From contig NZ_CP128399.1 in NCBI RefSeq assembly GCF_030389965.1, forward strand, positions 248,001-312,000: 64,000 bases of DNA. The letters run 5' to 3'. Position numbers and translations under genes: made by a program. Below, one piece after another: positions 7,276 through 54,628 of the stretch (the stretch's first letter is position 1; each line of letters begins with the position of its first letter). A model generated the notes under the pieces. It made no database searches. It had not been told where the DNA came from and worked only from the letters and a program-made list of their open reading frames with translations. The stretch is from Candidatus Chlorohelix allophototropha (GTDB lineage: Bacteria > Chloroflexota > Chloroflexia > Chloroheliales > Chloroheliaceae).

Positions 7276-7339
7276 CGGAGTAACTTCACATAATCATAAG
7301 CATAGGGTTATACTTTCAGCCAAAAACCAGATTTTGCGC

Positions 7340-7368
7340 TTGCAAAAATAATGCGCTTGTGATAATAT
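7340..7368 (+). promoter_or_regulatory. Probable promoter of the leuS T-box leader
   Basis: TTGCAA at 7340-7345 and TAATAT at 7363-7368 are 17 bases apart, with TGTGATAAT overlapping as a possible extended -10. Transcription would start near 7375, just ahead of T-box stem I. Confidence 0.45.
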
Positions 7369-7578
7369 TTTAGATGCGCCGGGAAGCCGTCGCAATAAGG
7401 TTAATAACTGCGAACGGAAGTAGTAAGCCACCGCACCACAGAGAGTTTCCGAGGGTGGGAAGGAAACAAGCAAAGGCTGAACTCGTCCGGGAGTTGCAGC
7501 GGTAAACCACACAGGTAGCCGTCGCCGGGAAAGCCCGTTATAGCCGAATCAAGCGGATAGCGCCTTCTACGTTTGCAT

Positions 7579-7651
7579 GGGGATGTAGCTCAGTTGGGAG
7601 AGCACAACACTGGCAGTGTTGGGGTCAGGGGTTCGAGCCCCCTCATCTCCA
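7579..7651 (+). tRNA. tRNA-Ala (anticodon GGC)
   Basis: A complete 73-base cloverleaf can be folded by hand. The acceptor stem GGGGATG pairs with CATCTCC (one G-U), the D arm is GCTC-AGTTGGGA-GAGC, and the anticodon arm is CAACA-CTGGCAG-TGTTG with anticodon GGC. The variable loop has 5 bases, the T arm is AGGGG-TTCGAGC-CCCCT, and the discriminator is A. The 3' CCA is not encoded. It lies inside the leuS T-box leader with no convincing promoter of its own, so it may be transcribed from the leader promoter and cut out by RNase P and a 3' endonuclease. Confidence 0.97.
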
Positions 7652-7703
7652 TCTTTTTATTAAAGGGTAGGCTCTATCAAGTAGGGTGGTACCGCGCAAG
7701 GTC

Positions 7704-7759
7704 AAACGCCTTTCGTCCCTAAGCAGTCAAGGCTGGCTTATGGGAACGGGGCGTTTTTT
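7704..7759 (+). terminator. Regulated terminator of the leuS T-box
   Basis: AAACGCC (7704-7710), CGTCCC and TAAG pair with CTTA, TGGGAACG and GGCGTTT (7750-7756), followed by a run of six T. CCCT in the left arm can pair instead with the AGGG of the T-box, giving the competing antiterminator. Confidence 0.85.
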
Positions 7760-7771
7760 GCTTTTATAATT

Positions 7772-8359
7772 ATGATTACATATTACGAACAAAAACAAGA
7801 TTTGATAAATTACACCATCCGGTACGCCACAGAGGCAGATATTCTTGCGGTTCGAGATGTGGCGCGTATAAGCTGGGATGCTACTTATTCGGAAATAATT
7901 CCGCCTGAAACTCGCGCTATATTTATCAAGCGCAGTTACTCCGATCAGGCTTTGAGACATTTTTTGAATCGCGCTGGGAAGGATAACTGGTTCTTGGTGG
8001 CAGAATCCACAAGTTCGGGTGTGGTTGGCTTTTGCGAAGTAATGTTGCGCCCCGGCTATAACCCTGATGCCGAAATAACCCGCCTCTATTTCCTTCCAGA
8101 GTGGCAGGGGCACGGCATTGGTACTGCTCTTTTGAATGAAATGCTGGCAATACTGCGCGGTCTTGACCCTGAATCCGGTCTTAGACCGCCCCGACTGTGG
8201 TTGACGGTGGCAGCACAAAACCAGCCTGCCATTGCCTTCTATCAGCAGCGGGGCTTCCAGTTTTATCGCGATTATGCTATCAACCTCCCCGAAACGCACG
8301 GTATAGTGCAAGCGTTGGAGGTAAAAGAATATATGCTGGAATTGAATTCACGGAGATAG
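7772..8359 (+). CDS. GNAT N-acetyltransferase in the leuS transcription unit
   Basis: The 195-residue protein has YTIRYATEADILAVRDVARISW at the start, ITRLYFLPEWQGHGIGTALLNEML (the Q/R-x-x-G-x-G/A acetyl-CoA loop) near residue 110, and AAQNQPAIAFYQQRGFQFYRD near 150. This is a single GNAT domain like those acting on small metabolites, antibiotics or protein N-termini. It sits directly behind the T-box terminator and ends 3 bases before leuS, so it should be induced with leuS when Leu-tRNA is uncharged. No Shine-Dalgarno sequence is visible before ATG 7772, because the terminator T-run occupies that position, so translation may be weak or start elsewhere. The substrate is unknown. Confidence 0.8.
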   Translation: MITYYEQKQDLINYTIRYATEADILAVRDVARISWDATYSEIIPPETRAIFIKRSYSDQALRHFLNRAGKDNWFLVAESTSSGVVGFCEVMLRPGYNPDAEITRLYFLPEWQGHGIGTALLNEMLAILRGLDPESGLRPPRLWLTVAAQNQPAIAFYQQRGFQFYRDYAINLPETHGIVQALEVKEYMLELNSRR

Positions 8360-8362
8360 ATT

Positions 8363-10873
8363 ATGGATACTCAAATAAAACCTGAAGTAAACAGGGCGGA
8401 AAAGCCGGTATATCGTCCGGCAGATATAGAATCGAAATGGCAAAAAATATGGGAAGAAGCGGGCGCAAATCACGCCCCTGATGATGATTCCCGCCCTAAA
8501 TTCTATAACTTGGTGATGTTTCCTTATCCTAGCGGTGATTTGCATATCGGGCATTGGTACAACTACACCGGGGTAGATGTGTTCGGTCGTCTGATGCGGA
8601 TGAAGGGCTACAATGTGATGCAACCGCTGGGCTTCGATGCTTTCGGTTTGCCTGCCGAGAATGCCGCTATAAAGCGTGGAGTACATGCGCGCAAATGGAC
8701 TTTGTCCAATATTGCCAAAATGCGCTCACAATTGAAAACGATGGGCGGTATTTGGGATTGGCAGCGCGAAGTCATTACCTGTAACCCGGATTATTACAAA
8801 TGGACTGAGTGGTTCTTCCTAAAGCTGTACGAGAAGGGCTTGGCGTATCGCGCCAAAGCGCCAGTTAACTGGTGTCCGAGTTGCCAGACGGTATTGGCGA
8901 ACGAACAGGTGTTGGCTGACGGCACTTGTGAGCGTTGTAGTACGCTGGTGTACAAGCGCGATTTGGAGCAATGGTTCTTCCGTATCACCGCTTACGCCGA
9001 CCGTTTGCTGGAATATAAGGACGTTAGCTGGCCCGAAAAAACCATGCTGATGCAGCGCAACTGGATTGGACGCAGCGAAGGAGCGCGTGTCAATTTCAAG
9101 GCTACCGGATGGGATGGTCAGGAATACGATTTGCCGATATTTACCACTCGTCCCGATACGGTGTACGGTATCACCTTCTTTGTGTTAGCGCCGGAACACC
9201 CGTTGGTAGAAAAGCTGACTACACCCGACAAGCAAACTGAGGTAAACGCTTACATCGAGAAAGCACGTGGTGAAACTGACATTGAGCGGCAAAGCACCGA
9301 TCGCGAGAAATCGGGCGTGTTTATCGGCAGTTACGTAATCAGTCCTTTCACGGGTGAGAAAGTGCCGATTTGGATTTCGGATTATGTGCTGATGGGTTAC
9401 GGTACAGGCGCAATTATGGCGGTTCCTGCTCACGATCAGCGTGACTTTGAGTTTGCCCGCAAATTTAATCTACCTATTCGCTTGGTTTATATGCCGGACG
9501 ATCGCGAGTTGAGCGAAGATTCGATGAGCGAAGCGTTGGTACATGAAGGGCATGTGGTAAACAGCGGGTCGTTCAACGGTTTGCCGGATAATCAGGAAAC
9601 CGTCAAGCAGTTTATTGACCATATCGAGCATGAGGGTTGGGGCAAGGCAGAAGTCAATTATCGCGTGCGTGACTGGTTAATCAGCCGCCAGCGATATTGG
9701 GGTGCGCCTATCCCGATGGTCTATTGCGACACTGATGGTATCCAGCCTGTGCCGGAAGAACAGTTGCCGGTATTGCTGCCGGAGGAAGTGGAATTTAAGC
9801 CCACCGGGGAGTCACCTTTGAAGTACATCCCTGAGTTTGTGAACACCACCTGCCCTAAATGCGGTGGTCCGGCGCGGCGCGAAACTGACACGATGGACAC
9901 TTTCATGTGTAGCTCTTGGTACTTCCTGCGCTATTGTAGCCCGATTTTTGAAGGGGGCGCGTTTGAGCCGAACCTGATTAAAAAGTGGATGCCGGTTGAT
10001 CAGTACACCGGCGGGGCGGAACACGCCACTATGCACCTGTTGTACGCACGTTTCTTTACGATGGCGCTGCACGATATGGGCTACCTGAGCTTTGAAGAAC
10101 CTTTCACACGCCTGTTCCATCAAGGTACAATCTTGCGCGACAGTAAGAAGATGAGCAAATCGAAAGGGAACGTGGTTGCGCCAGATGTGCTGGTTAATCA
10201 GTACGGGGCGGATGCGGTGCGTGCCTTCCTGATGTTCCTAGGACCCTTTGATAAGGGCGGTAACTGGACAGACACTACTGAGATGCAGATTGGGGGAATC
10301 TACCGCTTCCTAAGCCGTGTATGGGCGCTGGTGACAGATACGGTGGCGTTCGACAAGGGCGGTAGCGTTGATTCTAAAATCGAAGCGGATGTGCGCCGTT
10401 TGCAACACAAGACGATTCGGCGCGTGCTGCAAGATTTGGAGTCGTGGCAGTTTAACACTGCCTTGTCCGGCTTGATGGAATATAACAACGGCTTGATAAA
10501 GATGGCGCAGGATACTCCCGCCGTTCAAGCCAGCGCCGCTTGGCGTGAGGCGTTAAATACAATGCTGGTGTTGTTGGCTCCATTGAGTCCGCATATCACC
10601 GAAGAGTTGTGGCAAATTACCGGACACGAAACCAGTATTCATATCGAGACTCTGCCCATCTACGATGCAGCATTGGCAGCCGATGACTTGGTGACGTTGG
10701 TGGTGCAAATCAACGGTAAGTTGCGCGAACGTATTGATATTCCCGCCGATATGGGCGAGGATGAGGTTAAAGAGACGGTGCTGAGTGCGCCGAAAATCGC
10801 GGCAGCCATCTCTGGCGCTACCCCGAAGAAAATCATCTACGTGCCGGGCAAACTGGTAAATATAGTGCTGTAA
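8363..10873 (+). CDS. leuS: Leucyl-tRNA synthetase
   Basis: This 836-residue class Ia synthetase attaches leucine to tRNA-Leu. HIGH is at residues 61-64 and KMSKS at 596-600. The CP1 editing domain between them includes FTTRPDTVYGITFFVLAPEHPLV and GYGTGAIMAVPAHDQRDFEFA, whose Thr-rich and Asp residues hydrolyse mischarged tRNA. Cys pairs (CPSC...CERC, and CPKCGG later) may bind zinc. The anticodon-binding and C-terminal domains are complete (end IYVPGKLVNIVL). GGAG lies 7 bases before the ATG. It is the second gene of the T-box-controlled unit. Confidence 0.98.
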   Translation: MDTQIKPEVNRAEKPVYRPADIESKWQKIWEEAGANHAPDDDSRPKFYNLVMFPYPSGDLHIGHWYNYTGVDVFGRLMRMKGYNVMQPLGFDAFGLPAENAAIKRGVHARKWTLSNIAKMRSQLKTMGGIWDWQREVITCNPDYYKWTEWFFLKLYEKGLAYRAKAPVNWCPSCQTVLANEQVLADGTCERCSTLVYKRDLEQWFFRITAYADRLLEYKDVSWPEKTMLMQRNWIGRSEGARVNFKATGWDGQEYDLPIFTTRPDTVYGITFFVLAPEHPLVEKLTTPDKQTEVNAYIEKARGETDIERQSTDREKSGVFIGSYVISPFTGEKVPIWISDYVLMGYGTGAIMAVPAHDQRDFEFARKFNLPIRLVYMPDDRELSEDSMSEALVHEGHVVNSGSFNGLPDNQETVKQFIDHIEHEGWGKAEVNYRVRDWLISRQRYWGAPIPMVYCDTDGIQPVPEEQLPVLLPEEVEFKPTGESPLKYIPEFVNTTCPKCGGPARRETDTMDTFMCSSWYFLRYCSPIFEGGAFEPNLIKKWMPVDQYTGGAEHATMHLLYARFFTMALHDMGYLSFEEPFTRLFHQGTILRDSKKMSKSKGNVVAPDVLVNQYGADAVRAFLMFLGPFDKGGNWTDTTEMQIGGIYRFLSRVWALVTDTVAFDKGGSVDSKIEADVRRLQHKTIRRVLQDLESWQFNTALSGLMEYNNGLIKMAQDTPAVQASAAWREALNTMLVLLAPLSPHITEELWQITGHETSIHIETLPIYDAALAADDLVTLVVQINGKLRERIDIPADMGEDEVKETVLSAPKIAAAISGATPKKIIYVPGKLVNIVL

Positions 10874-54330: not shown

Positions 54331-54628
54331 ACAGTTAAATAGTGACCTTTTGAAAAACTATGAACAGAACGAGTAAGCTTGAAAGCGAAGCTTCAGAGAG
54401 TCCGGTAAGGTGTGAGCGGGCGCTGGCGCGTAGGCTGAATGGATCTGGGAGTTGCAAACCGAACGTTTACCCAAGTAGGCTTTGCCGGAGTCCCTCCGTT
54501 ACAGGGGAAAGGTATCGGCGTAACAGCCCGTACCCGTTGAGAAGCTGTTCTGTGAAGGCAGCTTGAAGAAGGGTGGTAACACGAGAGTAAGGTTTACTCC
54601 CGTCCCTTTATGGGATGTGGGGTTTTTT
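54331..54628 (+). promoter_or_regulatory. T-box riboswitch (Trp, UGG specifier) of the trp operon
   Basis: Stem I elements are GAACGAGTA near 54367 and AGAGAG at 54395-54400. GAA-TGG-A places the specifier TGG (Trp) at 54440-54442. The stem III region with CCGTTGAG and a linker hairpin AAGCTG/CAGCTT (54542-54564) come next. The T-box core AGGGTGGTAACACG is at 54570-54583, followed by the terminator. Uncharged tRNA-Trp would bind and allow read-through into trpE. The core departs from the usual ACCGCG end (AACACG here). The layout matches the leuS leader of this window. Confidence 0.93.
54597..54628 (+). terminator. Regulated terminator of the trp T-box
   Basis: CTCCCGTCCC and GGGATGTGGGG pair (with G-U pairs) around TTTAT, followed by TTTTTT. 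CCCT of the left arm can pair alternatively with AGGG of the T-box. Confidence 0.8.

Follow-up and report, generated by a model that had tools for sequence, protein, structure and literature searches.

The leuS leader of Candidatus Chlorohelix allophototropha (Chloroflexota) raises the question of how a complete tRNA-Ala(GGC) gene can lie inside a leucine T-box riboswitch, and of whether the tRNA is cut out of the leader or stays there as a part of it. The locus belongs to a stretch of 64,000 nucleotides that was analysed as a whole (the window), and the nesting had been proposed in a sequence-only reading of that window. When positions 7280-7800 were searched alone, the T-box covariance model (RF00230) aligned over its full length (model 1-219 of 219) to 7401-7723 of the plus strand with 90.8 bits and an E value of 1.4e-20, and the model itself assigned a 109-nt insert to the Stem III loop. 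The gathering cut-off set by the curators of RF00230 is 93 bits; because the leuS T-box scores 2.2 bits below it, a default Rfam scan does not report this T-box, and such a scan of the window returned the nested tRNA and a second T-box at 54351-54610. The AGAGAG motif and the CTC specifier before the tRNA, and the T-box core and the terminator after it, were all located as the earlier reading had described them (Table 1). Stem II and IIA/B elements occupy the space between Stem I and the tRNA in the RF00230 alignment. The CUC specifier for leucine agrees with the leuS gene downstream, and the genome encodes tRNA-Leu(GAG), the partner of CUC.

Table 1. Features of the leuS leader and of the genes that follow it (positions in the window)
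Feature	Position	Strand	Basis
Candidate promoter region, TTGCAA and AT-rich TGTGATAATATT	7340..7368	+	Sequence
T-box Stem I	7407..7496 (approximate boundaries)	+	RF00230 alignment, sequence
AGAGAG in Stem I	7440-7445	+	Sequence
Leu specifier CUC (CTC in DNA) in Stem I	7482-7484	+	Sequence, RF00230 alignment
T-box segment after Stem I	7497..7541 (approximate boundaries)	+	RF00230 alignment
Stem III purine string AAGCG (RRRxG)	7551..7555	+	Sequence, anchored pairing
Stem III 5' arm	7556..7565	+	RF00230, fold, in-register pairing across homologues
tRNA-Ala(GGC)	7579..7651	+	RF00005 64.5 bits (cut-off 29), ARAGORN, sequence
Stem III 3' arm	7669..7678	+	RF00230, anchored pairing, fold
AA flank directly after Stem III 3' arm	7679-7680	+	Sequence, anchored pairing
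T-box sequence AGGGTGGTACCGCG	7683-7696	+	RF00230, sequence
T-box sequence and antiterminator	7683..7723	+	RF00230; predicted fold -10.7 kcal/mol
Competing intrinsic terminator, hairpin then T6	7704..7759 (approximate)	+	Predicted fold -25.3 kcal/mol alone, sequence
GNAT-family acetyltransferase ORF between leader and leuS	7772..8359	+	Pfam PF00583
leuS, leucine--tRNA ligase	8363..10873	+	TIGR00396 993 bits, PF13603

The helix that encloses the tRNA had been called a linker helix, with 8 of 9 positions paired between 7557-7565 and 7669-7677. Those pairs were found again, and the additional pair G7556-C7678 brings the count to 9 of 10, but the label has to be replaced: by the RF00230 alignment and by its RRRxG and AA flanks, the helix is Stem III of the T-box, a part of the discriminator. 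The motif RRRxG-Stem III-AA defines the T-box discriminator, as set out in two reviews (PMC7583486; PMC7778990). It is present in the leuS leader together with the T-box bulge, which reads UGGU within the T-box sequence and agrees with the UGGN consensus. Because it is flanked by this motif, the Stem III helix is a working part of the switch. The predicted antiterminator and terminator are mutually exclusive through a common CGTCCC strand (-10.7 vs -25.3 kcal/mol). When 7551-7682 was folded alone, the minimum-energy structure placed a tRNA cloverleaf in the loop of Stem III; the minimum-energy structure of the whole leader lacks the T-box fold and was left out of the evidence. Ten T-boxes were detected in the genome, and a tRNA is nested in the leuS one only. 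In the other T-box of the window, the corresponding place is taken by an ordinary Stem III hairpin, as expected from the earlier reading.

Stem III pairing across the tRNA was then compared in homologous loci by an anchored test, in which the six bases after the upstream RRRxG were set against the six bases before the downstream AA. All six paired in 67 of 132 distinct loci and at least five in 102 of 132. When the 3' arm was slid by 1-3 bases, at most 11 loci retained six pairs and at most 28 retained five or more. Swapping partners between loci gave a mean of 9 perfect helices vs the 49 observed (93 loci). The pairs are of several standard types, so the sequences differ while the register is kept. 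These loci are related by descent, and the numbers are to be read as counts rather than as probabilities, with a large effect of register. An unanchored search gave 6.2 vs 4.5 bp, a weak test that the anchored and slid versions supersede.

The nested tRNA has a cloverleaf, the GGC anticodon and the alanine identity pair G3:U70. The genome (6.09 Mb) consists of five contigs, of which the largest two measure 2.96 and 2.45 Mb, and all 48 tRNAs detected in it, drawn from 33 short loci, were typed by anticodon. They include one Ala GGC, one Ala TGC, one Ala CGC and one Leu GAG. The nested gene is thus the sole tRNA-Ala(GGC) among the 48, and it must be cut out of the leader to be used. Thirteen other genomes with the nesting were checked by BLAST, which a highly diverged copy could escape: a second GGC copy was not found in 11, and two Dictyobacteraceae possess one. 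Across the homologous loci, G3:U70 and the discriminator A were present in 119 of 119, and the seven acceptor pairs in 118 of 119 despite a varying acceptor sequence. CCA is encoded at the nested tRNA in 90 of 132 loci; it is not encoded in this genome. U(-1) precedes the tRNA in 93 of 134 loci, vs a background of about 20%. This base is optimal for RNase P and the context A(-2)U(-1) is favourable (PMC9433436); A(-2)U(-1) is what precedes the nested tRNA here. In the commonest context (46 of 132 loci), however, the nested tRNA is preceded by G(-2)U(-1), which is inhibitory as a leader context in E. coli and can, by pairing with RCCA, slow cleavage (PMC9433436). From its single copy, we infer that the nested tRNA-Ala is processed and charged in the cell.

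To see how far the arrangement extends, we searched for a tRNA T-arm followed after 21-81 nt by a T-box core, a pattern that is not specific for alanine. Within the class it matched 38 of 158 genomes, which belong to several families (reversed control: none), and within the phylum 38 of 400 sampled genomes. The full arrangement, a leucine T-box with tRNA-Ala(GGC) in its Stem III loop and leuS downstream, was likewise present in 38 of the 158 genomes of the class, and in relatives the match to the T-box model likewise extends across the tRNA, the Stem III arms being about 75-145 nt apart. Among species-level genomes at least 120 stretches fitted the pattern, and at least 110 loci hold tRNA-Ala(GGC) (110 of 120 among the matches listed). 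Downstream leuS was found in 101 of 113 tRNA-bearing loci among the matches listed, most of the others being cut by the end of the contig or locus. These at least 110 nested loci come from Chloroflexota, Thermomicrobiota, Bacillota, Atribacteria, Caldisericota, Coprothermobacterota and others. The matches listed include Syntrophomonas, Thermosyntropha, Desulfofundulus, Desulfallas, Symbiobacterium, Ktedonobacter, Dictyobacter and Sphaerobacter, as well as MAGs labelled Atribacteria, Caldisericota, Coprothermobacterota and Armatimonadota. For T-boxes seen directly to enclose the tRNA in Stem III, the scores were 119.7 bits in Desulfofundulus and 105.5 in Syntrophomonas, and 90.9, 73.2 and 70.4 bits in one MAG each of Atribacteria, Caldisericota and Coprothermobacterota, respectively. 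The only other tRNAs at the nested position, among the matches listed, were one Ala(CGC) and two presumed chance matches. A crude regular expression detected the leucine CUC specifier in 82 loci. In a LeuS tree, for which non-nested LeuS were sampled only near this genome, nested loci occur in both Bacillota and Chloroflexota branches. The nesting is a widespread arrangement and not a peculiarity of one genome.

Eight pattern matches without a T-box tRNA (L128, L132, L151, L170, L178, L218, L222 and L224) were taken as chance. L137 is merely short of bases at the edge of the locus, and L093 (genome G078), where no T-box could be recognised upstream, may represent a partial or misplaced one.

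In some relatives the parts occur separately. Between two species of one genus (G038 and G060), the tRNA in Stem III is cleanly present in the first and absent from the second, and the remainder of the T-box aligns, so that G060 has a T-box without the tRNA. In G022, tRNA-Ala(GGC) lies about 160 nt upstream of leuS (locus L062, 3940-4460) and no T-box was detectable upstream of leuS; this tRNA possibly remained when the switch was lost. In G050, a complete T-box follows the tRNA at a distance of about 54 nt. Since the tRNA and the T-box were each lost on their own in related genomes, the two can be uncoupled, and their association is strong but not obligatory. Such separability argues against an essential mechanical role and favours transcriptional economy, or else a frozen arrangement that is kept because a single-copy tRNA cannot be lost.

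Taken together, the reading that we favour, with a probability of roughly 0.82, is that of a dual-purpose leader, in which tRNA-Ala would be made whether or not leuS is read and leuS would be under T-box attenuation. The leader would be a leucine-sensing transcriptional T-box of the leuS operon, with the precursor of the only tRNA-Ala(GGC) of the cell as its Stem III loop, and one promoter upstream of Stem I would probably drive it. Because every transcript that extends past 7651 includes the tRNA, tRNA-Ala would be made regardless of leucine status; such transcripts would either stop at the terminator at 7704-7759 or continue into leuS. The position of the tRNA upstream of the attenuator would make its supply independent of leucine. 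leuS would be attenuated as usual through the charging of tRNA-Leu(GAG), with read-through dependent on leucine. The tRNA would be freed by RNase P cleavage at 7578/7579 and by 3' processing, which here would have to include CCA addition; the leader would thereby be severed within Stem III. It is probably because the Stem III loop points away from the interface of the T-box and tRNA-Leu that it can accommodate the tRNA, and Stem III and the bound tRNA-Leu may keep the halves of the leader together until the decision is made. Were excision slower than the co-transcriptional decision, the switch would be unaffected; were it faster, Stem III and the bound tRNA-Leu would have to hold the halves together. 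Counted against the dual-purpose leader are a promoter at chance level in this genome, G(-2)U(-1) in 46 of 132 loci, and the whole-leader minimum-energy structure.

The alternatives differ in what they make of the tRNA. A decayed T-box or an assembly artefact, which the sequence-only reading had named as grounds for giving up its own proposal, would fit a score slightly under the Rfam cut-off (90.8 vs 93 bits), but other nested T-boxes reach 119.7 bits, every switch element is present at the leuS leader, including a canonical Stem I with its leucine specifier, and the same nesting recurs in at least 110 loci of separate assemblies, several of them from cultured organisms; the comparative data refute this explanation, to which we give practically no credence, and likewise rule out a chance arrangement. 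Another possibility is that the tRNA is never excised and serves as a part of the riboswitch only, stiffening Stem III or contacting tRNA-Leu. Some Stem III helices do stack 2-4 nt from the acceptor stem, which could hinder RNase P (PMC9433436), and the Desulfofundulus locus L134 has just 2 nt on each side between Stem III and the acceptor stem. A purely structural insert is nevertheless very improbable given that the gene is the only Ala(GGC) of the genome, that G3:U70 and the acceptor pairing are kept, that most loci encode CCA, that a close relative has the T-box without the tRNA, and that nearly all pattern matches listed carry tRNA-Ala(GGC) and no other tRNA. Of the two fates left open by the earlier reading, excision or structural insert, the gene content and the identity elements thus favour excision.

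Nor would the dual-purpose leader hold if the tRNA had a promoter of its own inside the leader, with the nesting a bystander linkage and the T-box only occasionally co-transcribed. Upstream of the leader in this genome, a sigma-70 match of 10 of 12 occurs at 7285-7314 in addition to the candidate in Table 1, and the promoter-like site is weak by consensus, no better than the chance frequency in a scan. In the 123 homologous loci, five matches of at least 10 of 12 lie within 50 nt upstream of the tRNA and would suit an internal promoter, but none lies at 50-100 nt, vs about 90 at 150-350 nt, before or around the start of Stem I. Moreover, Stem II and IIA/B elements fill the space before the tRNA, and Stem III pairing across the tRNA, which would still be required, is seen. 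An internal promoter is therefore improbable, and the grouping of promoter-like sites 5' of Stem I points to a single transcription unit for leuS and tRNA-Ala, as had been proposed. More room, though still as an unlikely variant, is left for regulatory processing, in which tRNA-Leu occupancy or antitermination alters release by RNase P, or excision leaves the leuS mRNA with a processed 5' end and thereby an altered stability. Stem III might then act as an extension of the acceptor stem, so that the state of the riboswitch would time the release of tRNA-Ala(GGC), splitting the leader and determining where leuS mRNA begins and how stable it is; this version we regard as equally doubtful. The recurrence of the nesting in several phyla with one specific tRNA would agree with it, as would the extension of the acceptor stem by Stem III, the slowing of RNase P by leader/RCCA pairing (PMC9433436), and the fact that nucleases attack T-box leader RNAs in B. 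subtilis (PMC3542257). Against it, the parts separate freely (G060, G022, and G050 with the tRNA before the T-box), and no tight geometry is kept, since spacer lengths vary widely among nested loci. If true, regulatory nesting would tie alanine decoding to the sensing of leucine in many phyla.

In mixed tRNA-mRNA operons, a tRNA is co-transcribed with an mRNA and freed by RNase P. The dual-purpose leader would resemble them in yielding a tRNA and an mRNA from one transcript; it differs in that the tRNA lies inside a structured riboswitch with a helix closing across it, and upstream of the attenuator, so that its supply would escape attenuation. It also resembles leuS-type transcriptional T-boxes (RF00230), with AGAGAG and the leucine CUC in Stem I, Stem II and IIA/B, RRRxG-Stem III-AA, an antiterminator with the T-box sequence, a terminator and a synthetase gene downstream, except that the Stem III loop here holds a whole, functional-looking tRNA-Ala gene. 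T-box leaders of B. subtilis are turned over by RNase Y and J1 (PMC3542257), and a leader RNA as nuclease substrate is common to both; there the enzymes are general endonucleases, whereas here the cuts would be those of tRNA maturation and would fall in Stem III, 5' of the T-box sequence. The available parts of the T-box reviews mention uncharacterised insertions and name no tRNA gene (PMC7583486; PMC7778990). We found no description of a tRNA gene inside a T-box in the open literature, including the available parts of T-box reviews, surveys and the database paper.

An RNA that senses one tRNA and serves as the precursor of another, retained in several phyla, appears to be a conserved architecture. 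It is readily overlooked, since many members fall short of the Rfam T-box cut-off; annotation pipelines should permit long Stem III inserts. It brings three questions within reach of a test: how much inserted structure the discriminator can accommodate in Stem III, whether the maturation of the tRNA competes with the riboswitch decision on the nascent transcript, and why a single-copy tRNA gene should be locked to one synthetase leader. Deleting the present leader would also remove a probably essential tRNA.

Several further features were observed around these leaders. In the relatives G001, G003 and G004, leuS also starts 690-725 nt past the T-box core, and this spacing suggests a conserved gene within the T-box operon at the position of the GNAT ORF. 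In at least 23 cases, a tRNA-Ala(CGC) is placed just 5' of the leuS T-box, about 200-330 nt before the nested tRNA, so that the order is tRNA-Ala(CGC) - T-box[tRNA-Ala(GGC)] - leuS (for example L129, L156, L168, L173 and L183, and also L185, L187, L188 and L190). By eye, the Caldilineales/Anaerolineae loci L129, L173, L183, L185, L187 and L190 appear to have an extra strong G+C hairpin after the nested tRNA, within the Stem III loop. The Coprothermobacterota MAG loci L142 and L160 have a divergent tRNA-Asn gene about 240-310 nt before the nested tRNA-Ala. The leuS T-boxes of L163 (Caldisericota) and L142 have a much shortened Stem I, with about 50 model positions absent, and retain the specifier region and the nested tRNA.
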